From Bolinopsis microptera (lineage: Eukaryota > Ctenophora > Tentaculata > Lobata > Bolinopsidae): DNA of 64,000 nt. The stretch covers positions 13,678,169 through 13,742,168 of the forward strand of contig NC_087072.1 in the NCBI RefSeq assembly GCF_026151205.1, written 5' to 3'. Of this stretch, positions 14,320 through 43,328 are shown piece by piece (the first letter of the stretch is position 1; each line of letters opens with the position of its first letter). A program made the position numbers and the translations under genes. Below the pieces are notes generated by a model. The model worked only from the letters and a program-made list of their open reading frames with translations. It did no database searches and had not been told where the DNA came from.

Positions 14320-14418
14320 GAACATCATCAGCAGATGACTTGGCACACCGGTTTCGGGGGTTTAATACCTGTACCGGTTTAATGTGCCAAGACCCCCTAG
14401 CAATCACTCGTCAGTGAT
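14320..14418 (-). ncRNA. Possible hammerhead-ribozyme-like segment 3' of Penelope ORF
   Basis: Just after the Penelope stop on the minus strand are CTGACGA (14414-14408), GAAA (14355-14352), AAGTC, and a second CTGATGA (14331-14325), flanked by pairing segments GTGAAC and GTTCAC. Penelope-like elements are known to carry hammerhead ribozymes. The core order fits, but I could not draw a clean stem III, so this is only a candidate. Confidence 0.25.
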
Positions 14419-19696: not shown

Positions 19697-20309
19697 TTAT
19701 GATAGTTCACCAATGGCAATTTGTGCTAGAGAGCGGAAGGCAGTGATGCTGTTATCACTATCATCTCTTAAGATAGACCATGATGGTTGGTCATTAAAGG
19801 AATGGTCCTGCAGGGTTTCCCTGTAAGAGCAGCTGCACAGTGGACAGTAGAAGAGTCTGTGATAATTGGTGTCCAATACCTTACAATTTGGACACTGAGG
19901 GTCACAGTTGTTGGCTACCCTTGCCTGGAAGGCTGCAAAGGTGATGTCATGGCCATGTAGGAGTGACATAACCTTAATATCCGTGTTTCTGCTTGAGTAG
20001 CGAGGAAATAATCGTTTGCTCCTTTCATCAATGTTATCCAGTATCTGACCCTCACTCTGATTTATTCTTGGGTTCAGCAGGAGATGTTTATTCCAAGTAA
20101 ACTCCATGAAGCGGATTATTTCTTCTCTTGAGTAGCTGACAACATCGTTCTGGACACTAGTCAGAAGGTCTATTTTGCTTCTGTTTAGTTCTTTGGACCC
20201 AGTTTTCCACGTTAGAAACTTACGTATCTCGTCAATATGGTGCTGGTATCGGTGGGCCTTTGCCTCCTCTAGCTGCAAGATGAGCCCTTGCATAAATGGG
20301 TCACTTGTA
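19697..20309 (-). pseudogene. C-terminal half of a non-LTR retrotransposon ORF2 (split by the 16-kb element)
   Basis: An ORF of 198 codons ending in a Cys-rich tail (CPNCKVLDTNYHRLFYCPLC) typical of non-LTR ORF2 C termini. Its frame remains open into the TGTA duplication at 20306-20309. It continues exactly the frame that stops being LINE-like at 36523, so it is the downstream part of the same ORF as 36523-37158. Confidence 0.85.
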
Positions 20310-20339
20310 AAGGCCTCCCCCAGCCTCGGATCTTAGGAT

Positions 20340-20785
20340 TAGATTTGCAAACATTCCTGAGACACAGGTGCAAAAGTTAAGACAGCAGAATAATCCTAAG
20401 ACAGCAGAATAATCCTAAGACAAAATTTAAGCAATTCTGAGACAGCAAAAAATCCTGAGATAAAATTTAAGAAATCCTGAGACAGCGAAAAATCCTGAGA
20501 CAAAATTTAAGAAATCCCGAGACAGCGAAAAAACCTGAGACAAAATTTAAGAAATCCCGAGACAGCGAAAAAACCTGAGACAAAATTTAAGAAATCCCGA
20601 GACAGCGAAAAAACCTAAGACAAAATTTAAGAATCCTGAGACGCGCGAAAAAACCTGAGACAAAATTTAAGAAATCCCGAGACAGCGAAAAATCCTGAGA
20701 CAAAATTTAAGAAAACCTGAGACAGCGAAAAATCCTGAGACAAAATTTAAGAAAACCTGAGACAGCGAAAAATTTTTAGATACAA
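20340..20785 (+). repeat. Subterminal 34-bp array (left)
   Basis: About 11-13 degenerate copies of a unit around 'gagacagcgaaaaatcctga' plus 'gacaaaatttaagaaa'. The complement forms the array at 36000-36480. Arrays of this kind next to the termini of a DNA transposon often hold transposase binding sites; that role is inferred. Confidence 0.85.
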
Positions 20786-21011
20786 TTTATACAATAGCCA
20801 CAAGAATATACATGGATATTACATCTTTTAATTTCTTGCAAAGAATATAATAAATACAATATTACTAGGTATAGTAGGAATGTCAATAAGTCAATAGAAT
20901 TTGTCTGAAACCTCTATGTGCCTGCTAATGAAGTGAGTATCCCAGATCATATCTTTACAGGTAGGACTGTATAATGGGGGCCCGATGTTATAGCGGACAT
21001 CATCTCCCCCC

Positions 21012-21045
<34 letters not shown>

Positions 21046-21589
21046 TTACCCATTCTTACTCCCAGTTCCATAGCGGATATTATGCCAAATTATTGGACGG
21101 AGATCGTCAACTAATATTTCTTCGGATATTTCTCCGGTTTGCAGTTCCATAACCTTATCCGGAGACCATCTACGGTAATTTTGTTGATTCTCACAGAGCA
21201 AAGTGCAAAGAAACTGCCACAAACTGCTACAATCTCCGAGAAATCTACTTATTGAGTTATTGACTAGCTTGCTAAAATTCATCGGCAAATTACCGCTGCT
21301 CGAGTTACCTAGCCAGGCCCATTTCAGTTTTGAGTACTGGAGTCGGTTATCTAGTCAAAGCCTAGCTTTTTTGTAACTTGCAAGTGCTTTTGCGGATTCG
21401 ATTTTCAAATAGTCGTGGATTTCGGCAAATAGTCGTGGATTTCGGCGATATTTTCAGATTATTCTTCAATGTCCTCAAACCTGAGCACTGGGACTACTTA
21501 AATTTTTGCTACTATCTGAATGATTTGCTCAAGCTACTGGCTCGCTAGGTTCAAAGGTTTATTTCCTATTTATCATGAAAAAAAAATTG

Positions 21590-21690
21590 TGCTGGGTAAA
21601 AGTTTATACGGTGTTCACCCAGGTTTGAACTCCCGACCTCGCGCTGAGCTAGCCGATCGCCTGGCCGCTAAGCTACTCCGGTGATGTACT
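21590..21690 (-). repeat. tRNA-derived SINE in left inverted repeat
   Basis: Minus-strand copy of the SINE seen at 35147: A box TAGCTTAGCGG and B box GAGTTCAAACC, spaced as in a tRNA promoter. It lies inside the repeat arm between two MITE-like segments. Confidence 0.7.
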
Positions 21691-21740
21691 CAAGAAATTT
21701 TTGATGTACTTATTTAGTTATTTATTCACCCCTTCTTACC

Positions 21741-22044
21741 CCCAGTTCCATAGCGGATATTATGCCAAATTATTGGACGGAGATCGTCAACTAATATTTA
21801 TTCGAATATTTCTCCGGTTTGCAGTTCCATAACCTTATCCGGAGACCATCTACGGTAATTTTGTTGATTCTCACAGAGCAAAGTGCAAAGAAACTGCCAC
21901 AAACTGCTACAATCTCCGAGAAATTCCCGGAGAGCTTCATCTCCGTATAACTGTATAATACAGTAGACGGAGCCGGAGAATCATCACCGTAGAAATGGAC
22001 CTCCGTCTAATAATTTGGCATAATATCCGCTATGGAACTGGGGG
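21741..22044. mobile_element. About 300-bp MITE inside left inverted repeat
   Basis: Bounded by CCCAGTTCCATAGCGGATAT and its complement (the shared terminal region is about 40 bp, reaching 'ggacggag'). A partial second copy lies at 21058-21246. No coding capacity. Confidence 0.8.
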
Positions 22045-22962
22045 TTAATCTGATTAAAAGCTACAAAAAATTCCAGAAATGAGATGGCTGGTTAACACCT
22101 ACCTTTGGAAAGCTCTGATGAACCTGCCTGTGGAGAAATAAACGCACTTAACTTCACCTCAATTGAGCAATAACTATTTATCGCTTATTACTTCATTTAT
22201 TTTGGATGTACAGTGTGCTTCGTAACTAATTTATTATTACAAAGTTTACTTTCTAATAAGCTAAAACGACAACTAATCTTTCGTTTTACTCCCTACTGTA
22301 CAGGTTTACTCGTCAATCCAGGTATATGAGAATGTGTGAGAATGGTCTTGAAACTCTGAAAAGAGGGAAGCAGTTTTGGGGACGGGGAGATTGAAGCGGG
22401 CGGGCGACTAATGAACCCCCCCCCCCCCCTATTGTAAGCCCCCCGGCTTACAATTGACCCCCCATGCAATTACACTGAGTCAATTGATCTCAGTATAATA
22501 ACATGGGGGTTAATTGTCGGTGGTCAATTGTCGTACTAAGCCTTAGATTGTACCTGCTAATGAGGTGAATATCCCAGATCATAGCTTCACACTTCACAGG
22601 TAGGACTGTATAATGGGGGCCCTGATGTTATAGTGGACATCACTTTCCCCTCCCTTATCTGATTAAAAGATACAAAACAGTCAAGAAATGAGATTGGTTA
22701 AAACCTACCTTTGGAAAGCTCTGATGAACCTGCCCGTGGAGAAATAAACACACTTAACTTCAGCTCAATTGAGCAATAACTGCCTATTTATCGCTTATTA
22801 CTTCATTTATTTTGGATATACAGTGTGCTTCGTAACTAATTATCATTATTATATTATATCAGCGAATGTGAACATCCATTTTAAATTTGTAAGATGCTAT
22901 CTCAATATCATTACTACAGATTATTCCTTTTTTACTAATAACCCCAGCTTCAGCTTAATAGT

Positions 22963-24109
22963 ATGTCAAACATCAAAATTTGTGACGAGGAGGGCTACAG
23001 CTTGATTCCCATTTTTGTAGTAAAAAAGCCAAAATCTACAATAGCTGTTGTCAAGGAATCCTCGACCAACGAGGACTTCCTCGTAGTGATTCTGGGGGAG
23101 GATGGTTATGGGGGACTCCACAGGCTGGAGGTTAAGATTGGGGACCAGCATTTCACGTCCCTTACTTCGTCAGATGATGGTAATCTTCTATTTTTCGGAA
23201 GAGGGCTTACAGAATTTATAAACATAGTATAAAAATAATGATTCTTTCCATTTTGATTTGTCTAATAAACCGATATCGACTGTTATCAGATGATTAGAAC
23301 TACCTTACACTTTAATTGCTAATCAGCCAATTCCAACAGGCCTGCGGGAGCTGAGAAGTAAGTTGACGTTTGGGTGTGAGCTGTTCTGCAGTAAAGTAAA
23401 ACAGGTGAAATGGAGGCAGGGTACCCGAAGTGAGGCAATAGCTGCCTCAATCATCAAAGAAGGGGTAAGTTGAATAATAGATTTACACATTTTAAAGGGC
23501 ACAGATGGTCAAGGAGGAAATAGAATCCCGTGTACTTGGAATTTTGAGATAGCTGCCCAACCCCCTCCCCCTCTTCCGTTTCTCCCCCCCCCCCCCCCCC
23601 CATCCCCATCCCCCGCCCCTTCTGTTTTTAAGCTACGAAAGTTTTAGATGCTTCAATTTGGGCCAAGGTAATGTGACCTATATCTTGATTAGTTTTGATC
23701 AACTTGCATCACGTGGCCCTAGCATGGCCATGGGGTACATATGTTATATGATACATTAATCAGTTAATAAATATTTCTCACCCAGAACACGACACACATA
23801 AATCACCATCTCCGGAAAAAATTGAAGGCAAACCGGGAGCTTCTTGACACCGTCCTTGGACCAGATCCGGTGTATAATGTGATTTCCCCAGTGGAAATAA
23901 TTTGCCCTGTGTGCGGCAAAGTTGTTCAGCTGACACGGACAGGAGGGCTTAGTGCTTTCACGTTGCATTCTCGGAGGAGGCATGCTCACAGTGAGGCCTC
24001 GAGAGAGCTGCTCAGGGCTATTAAGGAAAAAGAACAACTGCAAGTGGATCTTCCGCATATAAAGAGAATTAAACCAGATGCTTACAAGAGCTTCGACATT
24101 GGCTCTTGA
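22963..24109 (+). CDS. Three-exon gene of the giant element: small zinc-finger protein
   Basis: Exons 22963-23179, 23340-23464 and 23786-24109. Junctions are G|GTAATC...CAACAG, GGG|GTAAGT...CACCCAG; codon phase is preserved, giving 221 residues. The start is the ATG opening MSNIKICDEEGY. Exon 3 has a Cys2His2-like finger: C154, C157, H175, H180 (CPVCGKVV...TLHSRRRHAH), followed by a charged helix (SRELLRAIKEKEQ). The spacing suggests a BED-like or solitary C2H2 finger, so DNA binding at the element termini is a reasonable guess but not shown. I do not recognise the N-terminal 110 residues. It is the first plus-strand gene after the left inverted repeat. Confidence 0.7.
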
Positions 24110-24225
24110 TGGTTATAATTGTTTTTTTGAACCTGCTAACAGCGTGCGATTTCATTTGTGTTCATTTCTTTTCATTCATCTTATCGTGTCAATGATAAAT
24201 TATTACCTTTTTCTAATTTTTAGTC

Positions 24226-24468
24226 ATGATCACAGTCGAAGACCGTGATCATGTATTTTTCCGATGCCCTATTTATTGCAGTCTTATACATCATTATAAT
24301 CACGTCACCTCCCGCTTAAACAAACGCTTAAACAAACATGTTATAAACAGTCCCCCTCCGAGGGTCTTAGTGTTAAGTGTTAAAAAGTTAAAATGCAGTC
24401 TTCAGCGTTTCAAAATACAAGATAATAATGATATTACAACAGATAATTACCAATTTATAACATTGTAA
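24226..24468 (+). pseudogene. Non-LTR retrotransposon C-terminal fragment inside the giant element
   Basis: EDRDHVFFRCPIYCSLIHHY resembles the His/Cys tail of non-LTR ORF2 proteins (...H.F..CP.Y). Only about 80 codons remain, so it is a short 5'-truncated copy. Confidence 0.55.
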
Positions 24469-24549
24469 ATCAATTTTGATGACTAAATTAAAAGATTAAA
24501 GCAACGAAAGTTCTGATTAGTTATTGAATAGTTTTTTTCCGATGCTTTA

Positions 24550-24738
24550 TTAATAATCAATCTGCACCCGAACCGTTAACGGGAATTGTAATGCTAGAAG
24601 TAGCATCCCTTGTAGTCCATTGCTATCTCCTTCAGGAACATGGAAATCTCGTTCCCTATATAACACTACTAGTGTCATATTACTGGTCGTCGTAATCCCA
24701 AGATGGCCCCGTATTGTCTGGAATAATTGTTCTGTCAT
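24550..24738 (-). CDS. Small minus-strand ORF of the giant element
   Basis: 62 residues. On the minus strand the stop codon overlaps TAATAAA, a ready-made polyadenylation signal, which favours a real gene end. Its C-terminal half (...FHVPEGDSNGLQGMLLLALQ...) looks similar in layout to the first exon of the gene at 25232 (...FFLTGDASLQGFLLMSHFG...), suggesting divergently arranged relatives. It could be the last exon of a longer gene. No function recognised. Confidence 0.45.
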   Translation of the reverse strand: MTEQLFQTIRGHLGITTTSNMTLVVLYRERDFHVPEGDSNGLQGMLLLALQFPLTVRVQIDY

Positions 24739-25231
24739 ATTATAAAGTTATAAACTACTAGTAAATTTTGCAATTTGGGCATGTACTAGAATAAAATCAC
24801 GTGTATTTTACTAGTAAATATAAGTTCTAACCAACCTCGAACGTATCAAACGGGGAGACGTTTATAAATTTATGTTCCCCCATGTAAATAAACTCGACAA
24901 CTGTCATGACACGATATCAGACCGCACAAAATTAAAACTGAAAGTATAGTTATTGACTAAGGAAACTGAGGGAAGGCTGTCTCGGATTCTTGGCAGTGAA
25001 ATTATTAAGTTATTATATCATTGACCGATTATTCCCACACATCAATCTTGATCTATATTTTAGAGAGCTCTACAATTTTCAGATTAGATAATTACAAATT
25101 TATTTATGCTCTTATGCTTTGAATCATAAAATTATCATTATCATAAAATTATCATTATATCATAAAATTATCATTATCATTATTCATTGTACAATCACGT
25201 CACCTTTTTCATTCATTAAGTCATAATCAGA

Positions 25232-27465
25232 ATGGCTGAGATTCATGGAGCTAGTGGGACTATCGTAAGAGTCAGAAATCATTCACGGAAGAATGAACAG
25301 GAAAAAGAGACGTACTTGCCATTCAACGCAACAATGTTACACCTAAAAGACGTTATGGGAGTTAGTCACAAAACGGACATCTTCTTGTCTTCCATAGTAA
25401 ATGGGAGAGAGTTCTTTTTGACGGGTGATGCCTCTCTTCAAGGCTTCCTGCTGATGAGCCATTTCGGCGAAGGACTAATCAGCCCCAATTTGAAGTTAAG
25501 ATACAAGAGGAAGCCCAAAACGAATGAGCAAGGTAGCGATCTTCGTCCTAGATTCATTTTCACTTTATCATTCATGCAACATTCACTCACATGACATATA
25601 AATTATATTGTTCAACCACACGAAACGGGTTGAGCAACTTGCAAGTTGTGATTCTAATAATGTAGAATTAACAATTTACAAATCATCAGTCTTAAGTATT
25701 TGAGTTATAAGTATAACAGATATTATATCAGGTGTTGAGACTGAGAGGAGTGCAGAAGCGGAAGGGAATCTGATTGTGGAGGCAGATGTTGAGATGGACG
25801 CTGACGGTAAGTTTCTAATAAATAACAACCGCACTAAACTAGTAAATCAGGGTTTGCGGTAAAACGGGGTTTTGTTTGTTCACATTATTCATATTAAATC
25901 AGGGGTTAATGTATATTGTCTGCTATTCTGTCGATTTAGGAGGGTTACATTTCGCACATGTATTGATGTCAATATGTAATTGTACGTGTAGCGATTTAAA
26001 AATAAAGTGTAGACATCTCACTTGGTTACCAATTGCTAAGTTGTTAGACATCATCAACGTATGGCCGCACCTAGCACTCTAAGAAGACCTTGCCTTTTTC
26101 AGACAGTACAATAGATAATGTGCTCCGGAATTTGCCAAGCGAATCTGACATCAGCTTCCCATCAGGTTATTTACTTTTGTTGGCACTTGTTAGTTGTAGT
26201 ATTAATACCGTAACGAATACATTATACGCCACTATTAATGTCTTTCTCCTTTTCTTGGATCTCCGAAATTATACAGTTATTCGTATAATTGACTTTATAA
26301 TTATGACCAAATGTTTTCAGACGTGTTCGATAGTATTGATCCCATACAGGGTGAGTTATGTACTGTTTTTTTTTGTAATATTTTGTCGAATTGTTCTAAA
26401 TAATTATATTACTATAACACCTTCGCTTCTTTGGGCTCCGCGTGATAATCCCCGACAGCTTGCTAGTATAGAGGGAATTTGCGGCCCGAAGAACCGAAGG
26501 TATTACATTGTATATGCTATAACTGTTGACGCAATTCCGCTTGGAACATGACGTGTAATAGTGTAATGTGATACGTCCGCATGTGTAATATATAGTGCGC
26601 AACTTTTATTTGTTTTGAAAACTTCCCGCCAGCCAGTCTAAGGTGACTCGCCTCTGTGCTGATAATACGCTCGCTTCTCTTGCGGGAAAAATATGAAAAT
26701 AACCAGCTCTCAATGTCCACGAGTTTTAGTGCTGCATATATTTCCCAGAAATAGTTATAGCAGAAAATTCTAGATTGAATATTGGATCTGAATTTATTAA
26801 GTTAAATGGTCTCACCTAGCACTCTAAGTTCTAACAGTGCCTTAACCGTTTCAGACAGTGCAATAGAGGAAATGCTGGGTAGTTTGATTGTGGATTCAGA
26901 TGTTGAGATGGAGGCTGACGGTAAGTTTTTAATTTAACAACCGCACTAAATCCATGAATGAATTAATTAATTAGGTAATTAATTATATAAAAATCAACCT
27001 AATCTGTCAAGCCCTTAAATTAAGCATATCATCAAATATCATCATTTTCACTTTATCATTCATGCAACATTCACTCACATGACATATAAATTCATAGTTG
27101 GTTCGAGAGATATTGTTCCTGACCTGGAACAACCTGCAAAGAGAAGGAAGAATCCTGATGAATCTTCAAGCTCTGTACCAGATGAAGCCATTGCTAGTGG
27201 ATCTTATTATGTGATAAGACTAGAGTCAATTTTCGTACTTGGAAGAGTCGTTTCTTCTAATGCTGTTTGCAATGAAATTGTCGTGCAGTTTTTCAAATCA
27301 ATTGCATTGACTAGCAAGTTACATTTCGAGCCTTGGGGCAAGCCAGAGTCCGAGGTGACTAAAGAGCAGCTATTAAGTATTTGCCCCATGCCAGAAGTAT
27401 CCCAGGGACGCCGATACAAATTGATCTTCAAAGCCGGCGACCTCCCTAGAACTGACCTAAAGTGA
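25232..27465 (+). CDS. Six-exon gene of the giant element, 300 residues, unknown function
   Basis: Exons 25232-25532, 25732-25806, 26103-26165, 26321-26350, 26855-26920 and 27098-27465. Every internal junction is in phase 1 with GT-AG borders, and the total is 903 bp including the stop. The N-terminal 100 residues (exon 1) look like a compact alpha/beta domain. Exons 2-5 encode short acidic segments; exons 2 and 5 are duplicates (NLIVEADVEMDAD and SLIVDSDVEMEAD) and exons 3 and 5 both open with DS(T/A)I. The last exon carries a basic KRRK patch and a C-terminal domain (YYVIRLESIFVLGRVVSS ... LSICPMPEV). That arrangement recalls SH3-like 'delivery' domains seen in other transposon proteins; this is from memory only. 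Likely an accessory protein of the element. Confidence 0.7.
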
Positions 27466-27514
27466 TTCTATGTAACTTACTGTAACTGTCTGGAAGTCCG
27501 GAACTATTCGTCTG

Positions 27515-27931
27515 CTAACTGTGACAACAAACTTGAAAGCCTTCTAACTCTAATTCTTTTCCTTGAAAAGCCATACTTACAACCGTGCAGTTTGTTTCGT
27601 TGAAACACAGAACATCAAATTTTAGGTGCTGTTCAATTTCATCACGTATATTAGAGATTGCTTTGCTCAAAGATCGAATATTAAGAGATTGTACTTTAAA
27701 TTGATAAGGCCTACTCGTGTTGATTTGCCGTGGTTCGTAGTATTTACAGCTATTTAGTACATCTGAGCAGTTATCCCATGGATTAAAGTTTAAGTCATTG
27801 TTTTCTTCAAAAGTATTACCTATATAATTAGAGTCATGGTTTCTATGGTATGGGTTAAATTTTGCGCTATTCTCGTATTTACCGTGTACGGTGTATAATT
27901 GTCTAGGTGATACCTCGAAACCAGGAAACAA
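27515..27931 (-). pseudogene. LINE endonuclease-domain fragment inside the giant element
   Basis: Contains KVQSLNIRSL...FDVLCFNETN, the start of an AP-type endonuclease domain of a non-LTR retrotransposon. It is truncated at both ends and opposite in strand to the surrounding genes. Confidence 0.6.
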
Positions 27932-28149
27932 TTCACGTGTGCAGCTTTTGCATCCAAACGGCTACATTACAATGAGTTTATTTAAAATTTAAAATAGTAT
28001 ATTATGTCTTTTACTGTTTTTAAAAACCAATGAGAAAATCTTAAACTCTGCAGATTGAGATTTGGCTTTTTGATTGGCATATTCTGCCTATATTAAAGCA
28101 AAATCTGTATGCTTGCGAAAGTCGGTACCCCACACAGCGTACAATGTTG

Positions 28150-28202
28150 CAAAATGTCGGCAAATGTCGACGTGGCGACATTTGGCGACATTTGTCGACA
28201 TT
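28150..28202. promoter_or_regulatory. Symmetric AAATGTCG/CGACATTT cluster upstream of the large gene
   Basis: Two AAATGTCG copies are followed by two CGACATTT copies and a GTCGACATT, arranged almost symmetrically about ACGTGG. It lies about 80 bp upstream of the start codon at 28284. It could be a regulatory site or a cruciform. Confidence 0.45.
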
Positions 28203-28283
28203 ATAAGGAACATGATGCCTAATTTTGCGGGGCTTAGAATTCTGTTGCCGTATACCCGTAATTCATTTTAACATTTCAACAGG

Positions 28284-31200
28284 ATGGAATTTGGGTCGGA
28301 TGGGGCAACGACAAAACAACTTCGGGATATCATCAAGGATGAGAATTGCTGGAGTACTGAATGCACATCAGCACTGTCTCCGCTCCAGATATTCTGCTAT
28401 GATAGACTACAGCACACATTGCAGTCATTTATACCTGGATTTGATGTTTTGGTTAACCCTATAACCGCATTCTGTTATGGAATGAACTGTGCAGCGAAAA
28501 ATCGATGCATTTCTCTTCATCGGCTTAATGATATATCAAGGTTTACATCTCATGTATCAGGACATCAGGACTCATGGTCAAAATCAGTCATTGTTCGACT
28601 GGCTTTTGTGGAAAAGGGTGATTATTTTACTGAAAAGTCGGTAATAAATAGCTGGGAGCCAATACCTTCAGTATCAGCGGTTGTGAACGATTGTAGGCAC
28701 ATGATGTTTGAGAGGGATCTCTCCGTGCACTATCTTTCGCACTGGAAGTCAATAATATACAATAATGGTGTAATAGAACAGAGCTCTATACTCTACCAAA
28801 GTGACGATGCTCTGGTCGAAGATATTTTGTCATACCCTAAAAAAATACCAAATTGGGGCAAATGGCAAGCTATCAAATCATGGGCTGTTAAGTTCTACAA
28901 CTCCGTTTCAGAAGGCCAATACGGTCTTTTTTCAGGGGAACGTAGGAAGCGTAAAGGGACTTCTATCGAGGAACTTGAGAAATATACAAGAACGATTAAC
29001 CATATTACACCTGGATACACTACAGTAAGCTCGTGGCAACCCCCAGTCACCGTAGAGAGTGGTTGTCATCCGAATGTTATCTTGGCACATATACAGGTCT
29101 TAGAGAATAGAACAGATGCTATAATGGTAAAATCGGAAAAGTCAATGAGGTACCCTGTTGTTGTTTGTTATGACGGTCAAGACTTAAATCAGGGAGCATT
29201 CTCTGTAAAGAGGAAAAGCGATGGTAAACTATTTCTCTGTGGTCTCCAGAAGATGATGTCCGCAGAGGATATCAGTGAAATAGGGCTCGAAAATTTCCGC
29301 CACTACTTATCAGAGGAAACCTCTTTTGTTTCTGAGGCAAAAGAATATCGGGCTTATGATTTAGCGGGTATATTGTCCTCGAATGTTGCAACATACTACA
29401 GGAGCGCTGCTGAAAAAAATCAACAGATAACTGATGAGGTTAATAGTGTTGTTGATGGGGTGACTAGTTGTAAAACTTGTATCTTATCTGGTGTCCCTTG
29501 CATCTACAGCGATGTTCTCGGGGAATGTGATGCTTGTGCAAGTGGCTGTGGTCCTTGTGTGTCACTGGTGGTTGTGTCTGTTTTTTCTGACATGGCAGCA
29601 ACTCAAGTTGCGTCATCGAAAACAAATCAAAACGTTGTAAAGTCAGTCGAGGCAGTTAATTCAACATACTATCATCGTTCATCATTTGCGTATGGATTTG
29701 GACTTTTGCATGTTGTTAAAAACATCATCAATCACCAAAGAAATCAAGTCATGACTGATACTTATGGAAACTGTATCCATATTGGCATTTTGATAAGTCT
29801 GTGGTCACAGAAGACTGATATCGGTGCAAAGTTAAGGAAACTCCTTTCCCCCCGTGTGATGTATGGAAAAGATCGCCAAGACGACAACAGCAGCTTCAGT
29901 TTGTGCTCTTCCGATGTGCTTGATACTTTGAATGTGTACAACAGATCAAGCTTGTACGTTGTACATAGATTTCCAGAAACACTATTTAGTCACAAAAAAG
30001 ATGCACTCAATCACCATGAGATTAAAGCAATATCATCTTTCATCTGGCATCCTCGGCTTGAGTTATTCTATATTGCAGATAGCTTTACATCTTCCATTTG
30101 GGTTTGTAAGAACAGTTCAATAATGAAATTACAGAAGTTGGACCCCCTCGTTAACAATAAACGCATTCTATCCTGTGTCCAATCTATTTCTGGGATGTGT
30201 TTTTTCTCATTGGATGGCAGAGATTGCTTGATATTTTGTGATAGTAAAGCGAATACTGTCAGGATGATTCTTGTGAAGTCCGGCCCGAAAGGTGTGAATC
30301 GGCTTCACACATTAATCCAAACTGAAAGTCCTAGTTTTGTTGCCACATCATCTTGTTACACAAACATAGTTGTATATTCACAAACCACCCGTATAATGAA
30401 ATTGTACGGAATACAATCAACCAAAGGAAAGTCCCCATCAGTGGAGAATATGAGCAGTAATTTGTGTATCCAACTTGAAGGAGAGGACTATGTAGCGGCT
30501 ATAAACTTTGTCGACTGCTCTCAACATATTTCTATGGTCGTTATTAGCGGAAAAGGAAATATTGTTTTCGTACAGTGGAACATACATGATGATATCTGTG
30601 TTAAATGGACCATAAATATCAGTGATTTAGTGCCCGAATCCGTATCACATTCTTTGGTGACTTTCAATGCAGCATACCAGCAGTTGTGGGCAATCCAAGT
30701 TTCAAAATCCGACCAAAAATCACTTGAGGTTAGAAGCTGGGATATCGATGCGCATGGGCTAAATTCATCACCTCTAGCCAACTTCGGTCTAAAATCCGCA
30801 AAGTTACCTGATGGGTCAGAGGAATGTTCTTACGTCGTAACTAAGAAGAGCACCTTATATCTCATCACTAAAAACAATGTGATATTTGAGGTTGGTAATT
30901 TAAAGTTTGTTATAAGTTACCTCGAAAACTGTTCTCATATCTATAAGGCTGTGGGCTATATACCAAGGGGCACGAAAGCTGCTGATGCTGTTAAAGCTAA
31001 TGTCGAAGAAGCAAAGGAAACACTCACAAAGGCGGTCACCTTCTTCAACAGTCTATTAGAGATGAAGAGAATAGTCAATAACAACGTGAAGGCTATCCGA
31101 TCACAGCATGGATGTGTCTACTATCAAACCATCGATTGTCTAAGTTCATCAATAGACAGTATGAACATAGTTATTGAACGTTGCAAGCTTCTTCAAGCTT

Positions 31201-31388
31201 GCAACTTGCACCATTTAAAGCCACACACTATCTTTAATGAAGCAATGATCGAACATGCTTTTGGGAAGTCAACCTCGTCAAGATCTACTTTCAATAAAAG
31301 CATGGCGGAATATGTTGCTAGCAAAAGAAAAAACGAGACTGATGTGTTTTATAAAGTTTGTAAAAACCCCTGGATTCAGCAATCCTAA
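28284..31388 (+). CDS. Large Cys-rich protein of the giant element, candidate transposase
   Basis: 1034 codons without introns, the longest gene of the element. Visible features: VVCYDGQDL with D297; a seven-Cys cluster at 396-425 (CKTC, C406, CDAC, CGPC); VVVSVFSD with D436; HVVKN at 476; a conserved-looking GKDRQDD at 528-534; then about residues 570-900 with recurring short beta-rich segments resembling a propeller; and a C-terminal EHAFGKS (990) followed by a MAEYVASKRK helix. From memory this order (Cys cluster, hydrophobic strand ending in D, H..K helix, KDR motif, propeller) recurs in large unannotated proteins of cnidarians and molluscs. The acidic residues could be an RNase H-fold DDE site, which is inference. 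The frame shifts at an A5 run just before the stop and continues in 31375-31989. Confidence 0.75.
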   Translation: MEFGSDGATTKQLRDIIKDENCWSTECTSALSPLQIFCYDRLQHTLQSFIPGFDVLVNPITAFCYGMNCAAKNRCISLHRLNDISRFTSHVSGHQDSWSKSVIVRLAFVEKGDYFTEKSVINSWEPIPSVSAVVNDCRHMMFERDLSVHYLSHWKSIIYNNGVIEQSSILYQSDDALVEDILSYPKKIPNWGKWQAIKSWAVKFYNSVSEGQYGLFSGERRKRKGTSIEELEKYTRTINHITPGYTTVSSWQPPVTVESGCHPNVILAHIQVLENRTDAIMVKSEKSMRYPVVVCYDGQDLNQGAFSVKRKSDGKLFLCGLQKMMSAEDISEIGLENFRHYLSEETSFVSEAKEYRAYDLAGILSSNVATYYRSAAEKNQQITDEVNSVVDGVTSCKTCILSGVPCIYSDVLGECDACASGCGPCVSLVVVSVFSDMAATQVASSKTNQNVVKSVEAVNSTYYHRSSFAYGFGLLHVVKNIINHQRNQVMTDTYGNCIHIGILISLWSQKTDIGAKLRKLLSPRVMYGKDRQDDNSSFSLCSSDVLDTLNVYNRSSLYVVHRFPETLFSHKKDALNHHEIKAISSFIWHPRLELFYIADSFTSSIWVCKNSSIMKLQKLDPLVNNKRILSCVQSISGMCFFSLDGRDCLIFCDSKANTVRMILVKSGPKGVNRLHTLIQTESPSFVATSSCYTNIVVYSQTTRIMKLYGIQSTKGKSPSVENMSSNLCIQLEGEDYVAAINFVDCSQHISMVVISGKGNIVFVQWNIHDDICVKWTINISDLVPESVSHSLVTFNAAYQQLWAIQVSKSDQKSLEVRSWDIDAHGLNSSPLANFGLKSAKLPDGSEECSYVVTKKSTLYLITKNNVIFEVGNLKFVISYLENCSHIYKAVGYIPRGTKAADAVKANVEEAKETLTKAVTFFNSLLEMKRIVNNNVKAIRSQHGCVYYQTIDCLSSSIDSMNIVIERCKLLQACNLHHLKPHTIFNEAMIEHAFGKSTSSRSTFNKSMAEYVASKRKNETDVFYKVCKNPWIQQS

Positions 31389-31989
31389 TGTGTATCGCAA
31401 ACGATACTGTGAACCACCCACAACCAGCCTTTCTGTAAGTGAAGTACAGCAAGTTTTGAAATCGGTGAAGATCGCACCTGATAAAACCTTCACTTTGATG
31501 TCTCTATCCGACACAAATGCAGATAATGAAGTAACTTGCATTAAGGGGGCAGTCAAGATCGCCAGTGCTCAACCTCGACAACGGAACAGAGTGAAGTGGC
31601 AGGAAACAGCCGGATTTAAACCTGTGCTTCTAGTGTCAAAGCCGGATGTCGGTATATCATTCATCTTTAAAGAGAATGATATAATCCCCATAGTAAATAA
31701 AAACTTCGGCTCGGTTCAGTTTGTGCACATCTCTTCGAATGTATCCTTGAATGACTTCTTACATTTTCGGTGTTGTGTAGGTAATGCGATGGATCCAAAA
31801 ACGGGTGAAATCGACTCCACTGAGTTTGTGATTACCGAAGTGAAGACAGTTGTAAATGAAGACGCTATAGTTGTTGACAAAACCGGAAAATATTTTGTTT
31901 TGAACTATACCGAGTCCCTGATGGTAGGCTCGAACTGTAAATTGCCTTCAGAATTTGTGGAATCTGTTGAAGCCTCAATTGAAGCATAG
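31375..31989 (+). CDS. C-terminal continuation of the large protein in the +1 frame
   Basis: This frame is open from 31255, but the coding signal starts where the 1034-codon frame loses sense (around an AAAAACCCC run at about 31350). It supplies about 200 residues (NPNVYRKRYCEPPTT ... SVEASIEA). A one-base length change in the A run would merge the two, so I read them as one gene broken by a single indel. A 24-nt intron would be too short. Programmed frameshifting is possible but not supported by any other evidence. Confidence 0.65.
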   Translation, partial: FSNPNVYRKRYCEPPTTSLSVSEVQQVLKSVKIAPDKTFTLMSLSDTNADNEVTCIKGAVKIASAQPRQRNRVKWQETAGFKPVLLVSKPDVGISFIFKENDIIPIVNKNFGSVQFVHISSNVSLNDFLHFRCCVGNAMDPKTGEIDSTEFVITEVKTVVNEDAIVVDKTGKYFVLNYTESLMVGSNCKLPSEFVESVEASIEA

Positions 31990-32862
31990 ACAATAGACAT
32001 CTGTCGTAGACCTTAATAATTATTGATAATTGTTTAGGGGTAAAATTTGTTTCTTTTCGGGTAAATATTTAGTCGAGCTAAATTATGCATGATTCGATTA
32101 ATATCTGATCATAGCACTTCTCTTAAAATAGCACTTATTATACTCGTAACGACGTTCCGTTGTCAGAGCCAAAAAGTCCGATCTATTTATAAGTTTTTGG
32201 TTAATTATTAAATTAAGTTCACATGCTGATAGCTTTTATCTTTTGATGAGCTCTTTAGCTGTGATAGGTTTATATGTTTACCGTTTATAAACTGTAGGTC
32301 AGAATCGCTTAACGAGGATTTATCAGTCATATGATAGTACAATAGTCAATAATGATGTAATGTTATTCGACTGTCAAAAGGTATTTTGTTTTGAACTATA
32401 CCGAGTACCTGATGGTAGGCTCGAACTATAAATTGCCTTCAGAATTTGTGGAATCTGTTGAAGTCTCAATTGAAGCATAGACATCTGTCGTAGACCTTAA
32501 TAATTATTGATAATTTTTTAGGGGTAAAATGTTGTTCTTTTCGGGTAAATATTTAGTCGAGCTAAATTATGCATGATTCGATTAATATCTGATCATAGAA
32601 CTTCTCTTAAAATAGCACTTATTATACTCGTAACGACGTTCCGTTGTCAGAGCCAAAAAGTCTGATCTATTTATAAGTTTTTGGTTAATTATTAAACTAA
32701 GTTCAGATGCTGATAGCTTTTATCTTCTGATGAGCTCTTTAGCTGTGATAGGTTTATATGTTTACCGTTTATAAACTGTAAATCAGAATCGCTTTTAACG
32801 AGGATTTATCAGTCATACGATAGTACAATAATGATGTAATGTTATTCGACTGTCAAAAGGTT
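31891..32862 (+). repeat. Tandem duplication of the large gene's 3' end
   Basis: Copies at about 31891-32381 and 32382-32862 share the last 33 codons and 3' flank, with few differences (for example small indels and 'ggtagg' context kept). Copy 2 lacks the rest of the gene. Confidence 0.85.
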
Positions 32863-33311
32863 CCTTTTATCCTTTTATCGTAATTTTACTTTATACGGAT
32901 ACACGAACCTGTCTTTCACTGCTTCCAAATCCGGCCAAACGAGGAATTGAATTGTACTTTGTAGATTCGTCTCGTTATTGAGGCATACTATTTGTTTTGT
33001 ATTTTATAATAAGAATCTTCAGATCATATATCATATTCATAATATCACTGATTCATAATCACCGATCACTCACCAATCCCATTACACAGTTCTGCATGTA
33101 ACAATAATTGGGTTCACAATCCACTGACCACTTCCCGAGATATATACTCTTAACTCATCAAACTAGAGTAACGTAAGTTTAGCTGCACTCATGTTCCCCC
33201 TAACTCTTTCCAGTCTGCTTTTGTAAAATTTCTGTTAAAAGATGATGTTTCCAATTTTCTACTCAATTATAATTTTACCTATTATAAGTCTAATATATAT
33301 TCATATTGCAG
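32863..33311. other. Giant-element core, no recognised feature
   Basis: AT-rich sequence. No gene or repeat identified. Confidence 0.4.
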
Positions 33312-33640
33312 GTGAGGACAAATCAATAGTTTTGCACGCCTATACAGTATACATGACCTGCACATATATCCTCCGTTATTGAACGGCTTGCGTCAAGGCG
33401 TAACAGATTTGCTGGGCACTGCATGAGAGCTTCTGACCAAGTTATCTCCTCTATCCTCCCCTGGCGACTTACCCAGTCCGGCCGTGGAACTGTGGAAGGA
33501 GACCACTTACCTTCCTGGACGTAGTAGCTCGTGACACTGGGCTCCAGTTGGACGACCTTCGAACTGTTATGTGCGATCAAGACGTGTGGAGGCAGACAGT
33601 GAATGGGAGTTCGATCGAGGATCGCCGAAAGTAAGTAAGT
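33312..33640 (+). pseudogene. 3' fragment of a non-LTR retrotransposon
   Basis: The plus strand reads GHCMRASDQVISSILPW and, in a shifted frame, RDTGLQLDDLRTVMCDQDVW...SIEDRRK. These are typical of the extreme C terminus of non-LTR ORF2 proteins in invertebrates. 5'-truncated and frameshifted. Confidence 0.65.
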
Positions 33641-33734
33641 TGTTCAATCCCCCAGTACCTTTATTATTATAATTACCCTCCTAGGCTCCTACATCCTACC
33701 CGTTTTTGATGCTGTAATCTTCCCGTCCCCAACT

Positions 33735-33847
33735 TGTCACTATATGGTGCTGTCACTATATAGTGCGTTTTTTACACTATATGGTGACAAAGATCAGCTG
33801 TCATTATAAAGTGCTTGTCACTATATAGTGTTGTCACTATATAGTGC
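33735..33847. repeat. Cluster of CACTATATAGTG palindromes
   Basis: Six near-copies of the 12-bp palindrome (CACTATATAGTG or with GG) within 110 bp, just inside the right inverted repeat of the giant element. Function unknown. Confidence 0.7.
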
Positions 33848-34799
33848 GATTACCCCCAAAACCGCTAATTCCCTCTTTTCATAGTTTCAGGACCGTTCTA
33901 ATACATACTCCTATACCTGAATTGACGAGTAATCCAGTACAGTAGGAAAGTTAACTTTGTAGCTTTTCAGAAAGTTAACTTTGTAGCTTTTTAGAAAGTT
34001 CGGAGTAATCACTCAGGTATAGTATCTCACAACGAAGCCCAATCTACATCCAAAATAAATGAAGTTATAAGCAATAAATAGGCAGTTATTGCTCAATTGA
34101 GCTGAAGTTAAGTGTGTTTATTTCTCCACGGGCTAGTCCATCGGAGCTTTCCCAAGGTAGGTTTTAACCAATCTCATTTCTTGACTGTTTTGTATCCTTT
34201 AATCAGATAAGGGAGGGGAAAGTGATGTCCACTATAACATCATGGCCCCCATTATACAGTCCTACCTGTGAAGCTATGATCTGGGATATTCACCTCATTA
34301 GCAGGTACAATCTAGGGCTTAGTACGACAATTAACCCCCATGTTATTATACTGAGATCAATTGACTCAGTGTAATTGCATGGGGGGTCAATTGTAAGCCG
34401 GGGGGCTTACAATAGGGGGGGGGGGGGTTCATTTGTCGCCCGCCCGCTTCAATCTCCCCGTCCCCAAAACTGCTTCCCTCTTTTCAGAGTTTCAAGACCA
34501 TTCTCACACATTCTCATATACCTGGATTGACGAGTAAACCAGTACAGTAGGGAGTAAAACGAAAGATTAGTTGTCGTTTTAGCTTATTAGAAAGTAAACT
34601 TTGTAATAATAAATTAGTTACGAAGCACACTGTACATCCAAAATAAATGAAGTAATAAGCGATAAATAGTTATTGCTCAATTGAGGTGAAGTTAAGTGTG
34701 TTTATTTCTCCACGGGCAGGTTCATCAGAGCTTTCCAAAGGTAGGTTTTAACCAGCCATCTCATTTCTGGAATTTTTTGTAGCTTTTAATCAGATTAAC

Positions 34800-35097
34800 C
34801 CCCCAGTTCCATAGCGGATATTATGCCAAATTATTAGACGGAGGTCCATTTCTACGGTGATGATTCTCCGGCTCCGTCTACTGTATTATACGGAGATGAA
34901 GCTCTCCGGGAATTTCTCGGAGATTGTAGCAGTTTGTGGCAATTTCTTTGCACTTTGCTCTGTGAGAATCAACAAAATTACTGTAGATGGTCTCCGGATA
35001 AGGTTATGGAACTGCAAACCGGAGAAATATTTGAAGAAATATTAGTTGACGATCTCCGTCCAATAATTTGGCATAATATCCGCTATGGAACTGGGGG
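34800..35097. mobile_element. About 300-bp MITE inside right inverted repeat
   Basis: Same MITE as 21741-22044, inverted. A partial copy follows at 35563-35752. Confidence 0.8.
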
Positions 35098-35146
35098 TAA
35101 AAAGGGGTAAATATATATTTACATCAAAAATTTCATTCGTACATCA

Positions 35147-35250
35147 CCGGAGTAGCTTAGCGGATAGGCGCTCGGCTAGCTCTGCGCGAGGTCGGGAGTT
35201 CAAACCTGCGTGAACACCGTATAAACTTTTACCCAGCACAATTTTTTTTC
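35147..35250 (+). repeat. tRNA-derived SINE in right inverted repeat
   Basis: A box TAGCTTAGCGG at 35153-35163 and B box GAGTTCAAACC at 35196-35206, spaced 33 bp apart as in tRNA promoters. Counterpart of 21590-21690. Confidence 0.7.
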
Positions 35251-35999
35251 ATGATAAATAGGAAATAAACCTTTGAACCTAGCGAGCTAGTAGCTTGAGC
35301 AAATAATTCAGATAGTAGCAAAAACTTGTGTAGTCCCAGTGCTCAGGTTTGAGGACATTGAAGAATAATCTGAGAATATCGCCGAAATCCACGACTATTT
35401 GCCGAAATCCACGACAATCCGCAAAAGCACTTGCAAGTTACAAAAAAGCTAGGCTTTGACTAGATAACCGACTCCAGTACTCAAAACTGAAATGGGCCTG
35501 GCTAGGTAACTCGAGCAGCGGTAATTTGACGATGAATTTTAGCAAGCTAGTCAATAAATAGATTTCTCGGAGATTGTAGCAGTTTGCGGCAGTTTCTTTG
35601 CACTTTGCTCTGTGAGAATCAACAAAATTACCGTAGATGGTTTCCGGATAAGGTTATGGAACTGCAAACCGGAGAAATATCCGAAGAAATATTAGTTGAC
35701 GATCTCCGTCCAATAATTTGGCATAATATCCGCTATGGAACTGGGGGTAAGAAGGGGTAAGGGGGGGGGGGGGGGGGGGGGGGGAGATGATGTCCGCTAT
35801 AACATCGGGCCCCCATTATACAGTCCTACCTGTAAAGATATGATCTGGGATACTCACTTCATTAGCAGGCACATAGAGGTTTCAGACAAATTCTATTGAC
35901 TTATTGACATTCCTACTATACCTAGTAATATTGTATTTATTATATTCTTTGCAAGAAATTAAAAGATGTAATATCCATGTATATTCTTGTGGTTATTGT

Positions 36000-36480
36000 A
36001 TAAATTGTATCTAAAGATTTTTCGCTGTCTCAGGTTTTCTTAAATTTTGTCTCAGGATTTTTCGCTGTCTCAGGTTTTCTTAAATTTTGTCTCAGGATTT
36101 TTCGCTGTCTCGGGATTTCTTAAATTTTGTCTCAGGTTTTTTCGCGCGTCTCAGGATTCTTAAATTTTGTCTTAGGTTTTTTCGCTGTCTAGGGATTTCT
36201 TAAATTTTGTCTCAGGTTTTTTCGCTGTCTCGGGATTTCTTAAATTTTGTCTCAGGATTTTTCGCTGTCTCAGGATTTCTTAAATTTTGTCTTGGGATTT
36301 TTCGCTGTCTTGGGTTTCCTTAAATTTTGTCTCAGGATTATCTGCTGTCTTAGGTTTCCTTAAATTTTGTCTTAAGACTTTTCGCTGTCTTAGCTTATTT
36401 TGACATCTCAGGTTCGCTTAAATTTTGTCTCAGCTTTTTTTGCAGTCTTAGCTTTTCTTAAGCAGTTTGTCTTAGGAATT
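36000..36480 (-). repeat. Subterminal 34-bp array (right)
   Basis: Complement of the left array: repeated 'ttcgctgtctcagg' with 'ttcttaaattttgtctc'. About 13 degenerate copies. Copies nearest the terminus are the most diverged. Confidence 0.85.
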
Positions 36481-36522
36481 TTTGCAAATCCAATCCTAAG
36501 ATCCAAGGCTGGGGGAGGCCTT

Positions 36523-37158
36523 TGTAAGTGCTTTTATTATAAATTTTATAGTGACCATCTTGTAGGATATCTCAAGGGGTGGAATCCCAAGCGCAACAGA
36601 GGTCAAATCTTTGGGAGGATGGTGAGTGGCCCCGCTTATCTTCAAGAGGACCATGGCATAAAAGTCTTTGAAAGTGTCGAGGTTGTCTTTTAGCCATATA
36701 GGAGCAGCATATAGAAGTTTTGTGAGTACCACTGTTCTGAAGAGCATTCTGAGTGAGCTTGTATTCAGACCTCTGTGGCGGGTGGAGTTTTGGGTGATCC
36801 TGTGCCAGGCAAACCAGCATTGCTTGAGTTTGAATTTTGCGTGACCCTTGAATGTGAGCTTGTTGTCGATTGTTAATCCGAGAACAGTTGATTGATACGT
36901 ATAGGTTATGGGTCTGCTGCCAATAATTAACGGACTTAAGGTTGTGACATCAGGTGCAGTTGAGGATGCTGGTGCGATCATTATGCACTCGGTTTTGTTT
37001 TTATCACAGTTCGGGATTAGTTTCCATTTACTGCACCAGACATGAAGGTATTTGCACATCAGCTGCATTATCCGGTGAGCACATATAGGATCCATGTGGG
37101 ATACTGCTATGCTTCCATCGTCCGCATATTTGAATAGACTTGAGTTAGAGCTGCATTC
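36523..37158 (-). pseudogene. RT-domain half of the non-LTR ORF2 split by the 16-kb element
   Basis: Before the first ATG the frame reads SSLFKYADDGSIAVSH, so the RT motif C YADD is present at about 37122-37108. Then follow CSKWKLIPNCDKNKTEC and STVLGLTIDNKLTFKGH (thumb). The LINE frame ends at the TGTA duplication and continues at 20305. It is 5'-truncated near 37158. Confidence 0.85.
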
Positions 37159-38722
37159 CAGTTGTTATTATATTAACAGTTACTATTGTAGCTCAAGATT
37201 TGAAATTTGTATTCCTTGTATTCCTTGTATTCCATTCAGCTGATGACGATTAACACATGTTTATTGAAAGCGTCTACAAGTTAAACCATCGTATCGCTTA
37301 TATGTTTCTAACCCAACTCCATTCAGTATTACATAAGGGATCATGTGTCAATATCATTCAATATAAACACAATGAAGCGATAGATTCAGGGGATGTAGAA
37401 TGATTTTCTTCATGAGGGGGCCGAAATCTTAGAGTTTTTCTAATTTAACACACGCTTTGGCCACAGCCTGAATTTCAAAAACAGCAAAACGTGATTTGGG
37501 CAATAGAGATCATTTTCAAGAACGGTTAAAATAATACGATTTTAAATGCATATTAGGGCCTGCAAGCAGCTCTTGCGAAATAAGTGTAGTTCGAAAAAGG
37601 GATGCATATAGGGACTACGGGTGGAAGATGAATAATTGATATTCCAACAGCATCTTGTTCCCTGCATTGTGCTGATTCCGGGAAGCATTTTGTTTACGCT
37701 CTCATCATTCTGTAGGATGAGATATCGTTCATTTAAAATTGGGTAATTATAGGCCTGTCAAGGATTTCAGCCTAATTAAGAGCTGATCAATTGCAGCTAG
37801 TTGTGCCATATAAGGGATAACTGAGGTCACGTGACATTCAGTCCTATCACGTGACCGCTAATCCTATCACGTGACCTTGATTCGTAAAGCCTCGGGCACG
37901 TGATCACATTCGTAACGTGTCGTATGCCGACTAGGAGATTTTGTGACGTCACCAGAGCTGAAGCTACTTGATCAGGCCTTATATGGAATAATATCGTGTA
38001 TCGGGTGTAATTGGACCCAATTAGAGCAGCTGAGCGCTCAATCTGGTACCACCTTCTGAAACCCAGCAGACAGCTGGCCCAGAGAATCGAAATTAGAAGG
38101 ATTTTTTATTGATGGAAATCGAAGCGGAAACCTTGTAACCCTATGTTTTCGATGACGCCGAACAAGATTAAACAGGTTATAATTGTCCTACTCTCGTGTA
38201 AATTGCTCTAAAACGTGATTGAAATTGTAATGATGCTATCAATTGTAATACAGTTTTTACATTAAGCTGAACGGCTGGCATTCCTGGGCCGCACTCATCC
38301 CAGATTGTCATTCCGCCGCAGCTTCAATTTATCTGGATATTACAGCCTGGGGTCCCCAGGTAACGACTGGAACCGCTATATCTGCCTAATCTCAGCTATT
38401 GTAAATAACGAAGCCTGTGATCCGCACATCAGGTATTGACCACATTGAACGGGCTTGAATCGAACAAGCCGTGTTATTAATATTAAAGATATTAATACCA
38501 AAAATCGTATTACTAGATTACCTTGTTGTCATTTGTGCGAAGTGCGTACTCTTTATACTGCAGTTTGAAGTGCATTACAGAGTTAATGTTATGTGTATTA
38601 TACAGTTACAGTTATGTAACTGTTGCACACAGTAAAACTTACTGCGATCGCGCTGATAAGAAGTGAACTGATAAGAGTCGAGTAAAATTGCAACGTAACT
38701 AAAATCAATGTAACACCGCTAT
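37159..38722. other. Non-coding region with E-box cluster
   Basis: AT-rich. No exon recognised except possible regulatory DNA (see 37825-37920). Confidence 0.4.
37825..37920. promoter_or_regulatory. Cluster of four CACGTG E-boxes
   Basis: CACGTG at 37828, 37848, 37868 and 37897. The first three lie in a TCACGTGAC context at exactly 20-bp spacing, followed by a degenerate 'taacgtgtc'. The spacing suggests either a short tandem duplication or an array of bHLH-zip (USF/TFEB/MITF-like) sites upstream of the gene remnant at 38723. Confidence 0.5.
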
Positions 38723-41957: not shown

Positions 41958-43328
41958 GTGGTCGTTATGGAAAGTCAGGGTAGAACGCTAGAGCTGCAGG
42001 CGGATATTACAAGCTTGAAGAAACAAAGAGCTGATGTGGAAGAACAAATCAGCAGGGCTGAGGCCAGTCTTAATGAACTGGAAACAGATGATATAGGTCC
42101 TATCAGAGAGAGGAAAATCGCGTTGTATGACATGGAAAAAGAGTTCAAACGAATAGGGAAATCCCTGGCTGAGAACACAGAAAGGTTGACTAATATGACG
42201 GTCAATGCTAAGGTTGAACTCAGTAGACGAGCTGTCAAAAAGGAAGCTGCTGAATGGTTACGTGACGACTCTGAAGTTAGTGTGGGCTCACCAGAGCTGA
42301 GTTGGCCACAGGAGAGAGCTCCACGTCAGTTCCACGGGAGTAAAGCTCCTCGTTACAGAAAGGGGGATGATTTTAGTACCTTTCTGCTACGCTTTGAGCA
42401 TCATGTCAGACTCTCCGGTATATGTGACAACCTAGATCTCAGAATCAGCGGATTAGTGGAGGACAATTCTCTGTTCAAGAAGATCTCTAACTTTCAGTTT
42501 ACTGGGGATGAAAAAAGAGATATTAAGAGATTTATTTCTGCCATTAAGACTAGGCTTTTCCCATCGACTGACACCCGGATAATGAGGACTAAGTTTGGTC
42601 GCATGAAACAGGAGACAGGAGAGTCAGTCGAACAGTTTTCGGAGCGAATACGTGACAGCGCGGAGATTATATTCTCGTCAAGACTAGAGCGAGAAGGAGC
42701 CGCTGTGACCGCCTTTATTTCTGGTTTATCTAACACAGCGATAAAACGTAGACTGTTGCAGATGGGAGACAGTGAAGATGAAAATCTGGATCACGTGACA
42801 CAGATCGCAGTGCAAGAGGAGCACATCTCACAGGCTCTGGAGGAGCAAGATGACAGTGTTTCACCGGTGGAGGAGTTCTCTGGAATGCCATTGTTCGGAG
42901 TTGGGAGCGAACCAGTGTCGGGAAATACAGGCTGTCAGAAATGTGGTAAACCGGGTCACGTGTCAGAAAACTGTTGGGCAGGAATCACGTGTCAGTTGTG
43001 TGACAAGACTGGGCATGTTGCCCGAGTTTGTAGAGAGATGGGTACAGCCAGCATTCCCAATAGAGGAAGAGGTGGATATAGGACGGGAAACTCCACTGCA
43101 CCTCCAGCTCCAAGAGGGAGAGCTGTCGTATGTTATGGTTGTCAGCAAGTGGGACATTACAGGAGAGACTGTCCGTCAAATAGATCTGGTACTTGGGGAA
43201 GTCGGGTTGAACGCCAGAGTGAGATGTTACAGGGGCAACACCAACAGATGAACTACCAGAATGAGCATTTAAACGGGTACGCGACTGGTTCAAACCTGAC
43301 CAATTACAGTCGCGGAGGAAGGTTCTAG
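41958..43328 (+). CDS. gag: Gag polyprotein of gypsy element
   Basis: 456 residues. It begins with a coiled-coil-like region (LQADITSLKKQRADVEEQIS), then a capsid-like helical domain (about 120-300). It ends with three CCHC zinc knuckles starting at C326, C345 and C392 (for example CQKCGKPGHVSENC). Packages element RNA into particles. The frame is intact. The pol frame overlaps its end in the -1 phase, so a -1 ribosomal frameshift is the likely link. Confidence 0.9.
   Translation: MVVMESQGRTLELQADITSLKKQRADVEEQISRAEASLNELETDDIGPIRERKIALYDMEKEFKRIGKSLAENTERLTNMTVNAKVELSRRAVKKEAAEWLRDDSEVSVGSPELSWPQERAPRQFHGSKAPRYRKGDDFSTFLLRFEHHVRLSGICDNLDLRISGLVEDNSLFKKISNFQFTGDEKRDIKRFISAIKTRLFPSTDTRIMRTKFGRMKQETGESVEQFSERIRDSAEIIFSSRLEREGAAVTAFISGLSNTAIKRRLLQMGDSEDENLDHVTQIAVQEEHISQALEEQDDSVSPVEEFSGMPLFGVGSEPVSGNTGCQKCGKPGHVSENCWAGITCQLCDKTGHVARVCREMGTASIPNRGRGGYRTGNSTAPPAPRGRAVVCYGCQQVGHYRRDCPSNRSGTWGSRVERQSEMLQGQHQQMNYQNEHLNGYATGSNLTNYSRGGRF

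Follow-up and report, generated by a model that had tools for sequence, protein, structure and literature searches.

A 64,000-nt window of the Bolinopsis microptera genome (C1:13678169-13742168; all genome searches cover this assembly, 264.65 Mb in 232 contigs) carries a 16.2-kb mobile element with terminal inverted repeats (TIRs), inserted into the open frame of a long interspersed nuclear element (LINE). The element, its ends, the 6-bp target-site duplication (TSD) around it and the recent movement of its family are established. We consider it somewhat better than an even bet that the element is a cut-and-paste DNA transposon of the TIR type, belonging to an unassigned lineage and using its open reading frame ORF3 as transposase. 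TIR DNA transposons are recognized by terminal inverted repeats, a target duplication of fixed length across copies, an empty site and an encoded DDE/D transposase. The first three are directly observed here; as candidate evidence for the fourth, ORF3 has conserved acidic residues, with no match in Pfam or among PDB sequences and with low-confidence structural models. Coordinates are collected in Table 1.

We compared both flanks for 23 end pairs. An exact 6-bp duplication was found in 22 of them, the exact match extending further in 0 of the 22, and deliberately mismatched flank pairings agreed over 6 bp in 0 of 506 control cases. The first-pass annotation had proposed a 4-bp TGTA duplication, with the element ending at 20310 and 36522. 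The proposal of a LINE frame interrupted by a large TIR element stands, but these details do not: the duplication is TTGTAA, of which TGTA is the core, and the base formerly counted as the element's first is A, T, C or G among copies. This variable flanking base, together with the exact 6 bp in 22 of 23 pairs, rules out TGTA as the duplication. As a target motif TGTA was likewise rejected, since other copies keep the termini but carry different duplications. The genome search with the termini that the annotation had recommended recovered the expected tips in other copies, flanked by 6-bp instead of TGTA-like 4-bp duplications.

The insertion into the LINE is independently supported. As predicted, excising the element with one duplication restores a 416-aa frame in which the YADD motif and the Cys-rich tail lie on opposite sides of the junction. 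This test had also been credited with defining the boundaries to the base, which it fails to do: the 4-bp and 6-bp readings both remove 16,217 bases, so that the frame test is blind to the difference, and because shifting the excision by multiples of three also leaves the LINE frame open, the test alone leaves the exact boundary base unfixed. A sibling LINE copy fixes the insertion boundary where the frame test falls short. This copy (L075), which encodes RVT_1 (E=6.5e-31) and endonuclease domains, is 99.1% identical along 1,601 bp spanning the junction, where it has a single TTGTAA, and the only gap in the alignment sits away from the junction. The empty site that the annotation had asked for therefore exists. 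In addition, among the 150 of 274 candidate LINE matches that were scored, nine LINE copies with 98-99% amino-acid identity span the full 244-residue junction query in 732 nt, stop-free.

The mirror-image termini, described earlier over about 2.5 kb, were borne out, with arm segments of 630 nt and 389 nt at 96% and 99% complementarity, respectively. The outer 2.7 kb of both ends align at 93.3%, the similarity fading near 2.55 kb; by 200-column blocks, 11 of 14 stand at 94-99.5%, and the outermost at 83%. In all 22 verified elements one end is GGATTAGATTTG (A-type) and the other GGATTGGATTTG (G-type), and we oriented the 22 duplications by end type and tested each position with base frequencies of the retrieved loci as the expectation (binomial P values, uncorrected for the six positions). 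Position 2 is T in 17 of 22 (P=8e-6), position 5 is A in 14 (P=0.0015), and positions 1 and 6 are T and A, respectively, in 13 each (P ~0.005 each). Together these amount to a palindromic TT..AA preference.

Exact AGGCCTCCCCCAGCC tips occur 54 times in the genome (29 forward, 25 reverse), and the reversed control pattern 0 times. Eight of the 54 were left unpaired (C1:23010223, C3:4518491, C8:1156508, C8:5845000, C9:2858207, C10:15529629, and one on each of two short contigs, C97 and C213), as were the mismatched tips C5:2362839 and C13:5468264. Across the outer 600 bp of 32 ends, nearest-neighbour identity exceeds 98.8% for 25 and lies between 53% and 94% for the remaining 7; the closeness of these 25 indicates recent movement of the family. 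The window copy is the longest of the 22 verified pairs, the other 21 measuring 3.1-10.7 kb, and 12 of the 22 fall within 4.4-5.6 kb. Fourteen of the 21 other pairs were retrieved whole. They have their arms in common with the window copy, and most also share its short right interior; their long frames, where present, are reverse-transcriptase-like, low-complexity or unidentified, and never ORF3. Of the 13 ORF3 matches in the genome (a lower bound), that of the window alone falls between verified ends. The window copy is probably the family's coding member, autonomous or lately autonomous, the genes being absent from the other copies.

The 23rd end pair, on C2, would span 54 kb. We rejected it as a giant element because each flank is the reverse complement of the other: what it shows is one end of a single degraded copy, duplicated in inverted orientation. 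At C2:1467550 and C2:1521557 (L017, L018, L074), 54 kb apart, the same degraded end and ORF2 exon recur with mirror-image flanks, produced either by segmental duplication in inverted orientation or by a fold-back in the assembly. The degraded copy has the same tip and keeps ORF2 exon 1 at 75-80% identity. Could the TIRs of the window element themselves be mimicked by an assembly error or a segmental inverted duplication? The long arms at 93% identity and the real inverted duplication on C2 are the kind of observation that would invite this view, yet we give it next to no credence, given 22 pairs at separate loci, each with its own exact 6-bp duplication, and an empty site. On C10, two right ends in the same orientation (C10:15514690-15514860, L073, and C10:15529644, L031) lie ~14.8 kb apart with nearly identical flanks, probably a tandem duplication around one insertion.

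Three genes lie between the arms, all on the same strand. The ORF1 and ORF2 models were assembled by hand from GT-AG introns that keep the frame open. By eye, ORF1 contains a C2H2-like CPVCG..H..H pattern, and elsewhere in the genome it has only two distant matches, at 31-33%. The relatives of ORF3 read on in frame past the position of its stop, whereas the window copy goes on in the overlapping frame 31249-31989, so that its frame changes near 31.36 kb. A mutation, an error in sequencing and splicing would explain this equally well. If this downstream frame is included, as in the relatives, the putative ORF3 transposase would exceed 1,200 aa. Two further features lie close to ORF3. Between ORF2 and ORF3, window 27515-27961 (-) holds a LINE-like fragment 41% identical to a C12 LINE frame, which may be a nested insertion or a relic. 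A ~490-bp tandem duplication (97%; window 31891-32292 and 32382-32776) includes the terminal part of this downstream frame.

By inference, ORF3 would be the transposase and have DDE chemistry, and movement would be by cut and paste; the parts given below to ORF1 and ORF2 are likewise inferred. Within the available alignments, D297 is kept in 6 of 6 covering rows, D359 in 7 of 7, and E986 and E990 in 6 of 6, the window row for the two glutamates being placed by tblastn alignments. The conserved contexts YDxQxxNQG (D297) and NExxIEHGF (E986, E990), together with D359 and a YGFGxLHxxKN motif, suggest by eye a resemblance to transposase cores. In the model we favour, ORF3, or the small ORF1 and ORF2 proteins, would bind the ends at the AGGCC tips and 40-bp arrays; the transposase would cut and would attach the ends to a target of the TT..AA type at positions staggered by 6 bp, which repair by the host would turn into the 6-bp duplication.

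ORF3 relatives outside the verified pairs bear on this model. On C11, two C-terminal pieces at 85% and 69% identity both contain stops. A relative at C12:0.58 Mb, ~30% identical across the N-terminal half, consists of an N half, a 185-bp satellite array and a C half; the array lies in the gap between the halves (L061:1718-6482). Through this C12 protein we found a C-terminal relative at C12:3.47 Mb (43% identical to it and ~30% to the window), whose surrounding element, 7,593 bp long, has a perfect 23-bp TIR (AGGCCCCTTCCAGCC...), AGGCCCC tips and, by eye, GGCAGGTTTT repeats near the ends. Just upstream of the ORF3 relative lies a stretch like the last exon of ORF2. This element is the strongest link of ORF3 to AGGCC ends, yet it is one element only. 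Identical 580-bp direct repeats (100%; C12:3462568-3463147 and C12:3477559-3478138, L064 and L065) enclose the 7.6-kb element ~15 kb apart; they are long-terminal-repeat-like and very young. Against 5.8 billion proteins, ORF3 alone gave no match at E 0.001, and alignments of family members gave 10 matches (4 + 6), all without a name. One protein from another assembly, P0010, joins a piece like ORF2 exon 1 (63% over 38 aa) to an ORF3-like piece (E=7e-15).

Several results weigh against ORF3 as the transposase. Pfam scans covered spliced ORF1 and ORF2 and, of the 18 interior ORFs of at least 80 aa, 16 (the other two overlap ORF3 in different frames); no curated cut-off was reached, and there were weak matches to unrelated families only. 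Among PDB sequences, no match was found to a profile of ORF3 as a whole or to one of the N-terminal half. By eye, ORF3 has GxxH where hAT, P, Kolobok and MuDR have the C/DxxH motif, and its putative second catalytic Asp is uncertain. AlphaFold2 runs on ORF3 with 3 and 8 sequences returned a mean predicted local distance difference test score (pLDDT) of 31.8 and 34.5; the pLDDT-31.8 model places strands near residues 307-319, then a strand-rich middle (about 583-878) and a helical end, a layout to be taken as a hint only. Within the family, the long ORF3 is known from the window copy only, with a changed frame. The 7,593-bp C12 element has no N-terminal half of ORF3, and its similarity to ORF2 is weak (one comparison, E=3e-4). 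Its duplication can be read equally well as TACCTT, 6 bp long with AGGCC as the tips, or as TTACCTTA, 8 bp long with GGCC as the tips. This possible 8-bp reading slightly lowers the weight of ORF3 as a transposase and of a new superfamily, and slightly raises that of a rival in which a transposase not seen here, perhaps of hAT6 or IS3EU type, would mobilise the ends in trans, with ORF1-ORF3 as passengers or captured genes. Such a rival, consistent with the lack of a recognizable transposase domain in the ORFs scanned and with the movement of copies that have no ORF3, is in our view unlikely. An ORF3 relative lies inside a second family with similar AGGCC tips, P0010 has ORF2-like and ORF3-like stretches side by side, and passenger genes are not expected to track ends across that distance.

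The earlier remark that the element matches no nameable superfamily still holds after Pfam, PDB and protein searches, and the element may come from a DNA-transposon lineage unrecognised by the protein libraries used. Polinton/Maverick elements are 15-20 kb long with long TIRs, and AG...CT tips are Polinton-like. One alternative is that the window element is a Polinton/Maverick in reduced form, its polymerase and integrase gone and its movement supplied by a Polinton integrase. The 16-kb size, the long TIRs and the 6-bp TSD (6 bp in Polintons: PMC10045372) agree with this. We regard this as improbable: no rve integrase or DNA polymerase B domain was found by Pfam in the 16 scanned ORFs, more than half of the verified copies measure only 4.4-5.6 kb, ORF1 and ORF2 look spliced, and a search of viral contigs gave one pattern match and no confirmed ORF3 relative.

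Other lineages share some features with the window element. A 6-bp TSD is usual for IS3EU and stated for GingerRoot, whose termini are TA..TA in the former and mostly TA..TA, occasionally TG..CA, in the latter (PMC10045372); the window termini are instead AGGCC..GGCCT, and no integrase-like domain was found. The hAT lineage hAT6 also has a 6-bp TSD (PMC12730594). In contrast to hAT6, the window element shows no hAT transposase or dimerisation domain in the same Pfam scans. Galileo has a 7-bp TSD, and Galileo-type foldback elements have long TIRs with tandem arrays. The window element resembles P/Galileo in its long TIRs with tandem arrays and, by eye, in the style of its Asp motif and an HxxKN-like motif, but differs in its TSD (6 versus 7-8 bp) and in having no THAP or P-element RNase-H match in these scans. 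The TSD is ~8 bp in the P superfamily (PMC3706591) and 7-8 bp in KDZ (Kyakuja, Dileera, Zisupton; PMC12730594), unlike the 6 bp of the window family. U6-targeting Dada families share the 6-bp TSD (PMC3706591), but Dada elements lack TIRs and insert into genes for small RNAs. The window copy, with its long TIRs, interrupts a LINE, and the family's targets are AT-rich (judged for the other copies by their duplications only).

Tentatively, and at a little under even confidence, we propose an undescribed animal DNA-transposon superfamily, with AGGCCYC tips, two end types, subterminal arrays, 6-bp TT..AA-type duplications, three genes and a very large transposase whose beta-rich, possibly propeller-like middle would be an insertion separating the first catalytic Asp residues from the Glu. 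Novelty at the superfamily level is plausible. Repbase sorts eukaryotic DNA transposons into 24 superfamilies (PMC12730594). A description of the element was not found in the portions of the literature searched (including PMC12221973, PMC10045372, PMC2836005, PMC12730594 and PMC3706591), and a Repbase or Dfam entry may exist.

Two further frames in the window lie outside the element. The 932-aa frame at 14418-17216 (-) has, by eye, a GIY-YIG-like stretch on its N-terminal side, followed by a part that resembles reverse transcriptase, an order that we take to resemble permuted Penelope-like elements (Naiad). The 456-aa frame at 41958-43328 (+), with several CCHC knuckles and gag-like by eye, would be part of a separate retroelement.

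Table 1 Features of the element and its insertion site, in window positions
Feature	Position	Strand	Remarks
LINE open frame, Cys-rich tail side	19697..20310	-	
Left TSD	20305..20310		TTGTAA, 6 bp
Transposon	20311..36521	+	16,211 bp; tips AGGCCTCCCCCAGCC...GGCTGGGGGAGGCCT
Left inverted arm, A-type end (GGATTAGATTTG)	20311..22850	+	~2.5 kb, inner limit approximate
40-bp tandem array	20392..20773	+	9.5 copies; candidate transposase binding sites
ORF1	22963..24109	+	3 exons (22963-23179, 23340-23464, 23786-24109); 221 aa
ORF2	25232..27465	+	6 exons (25232-25532, 25732-25806, 26103-26165, 26321-26350, 26855-26920, 27098-27465); 300 aa; exon 1 common to C2 copy and P0010
ORF3, putative transposase	28284..31388	+	1,034 aa and stop; conserved D297, D359, E986, E990
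Overlapping frame	31249..31989	+	encodes the portion that in relatives follows the EHGF motif in frame
Right inverted arm, G-type end (GGATTGGATTTG)	34015..36521	-	~2.5 kb, inner limit approximate
40-bp tandem array	36001..36390	-	9.8 copies
Right TSD	36522..36527		TTGTAA, 6 bp
LINE open frame, reverse-transcriptase (YADD) side	36522..37164	-	

If the proposal is true, a lineage with its own ends, TSD length and large unrecognised transposase would add to the DNA transposons a branch from which new DNA-binding genes might arise. The recent movement and the empty sites make the activity of the family testable.

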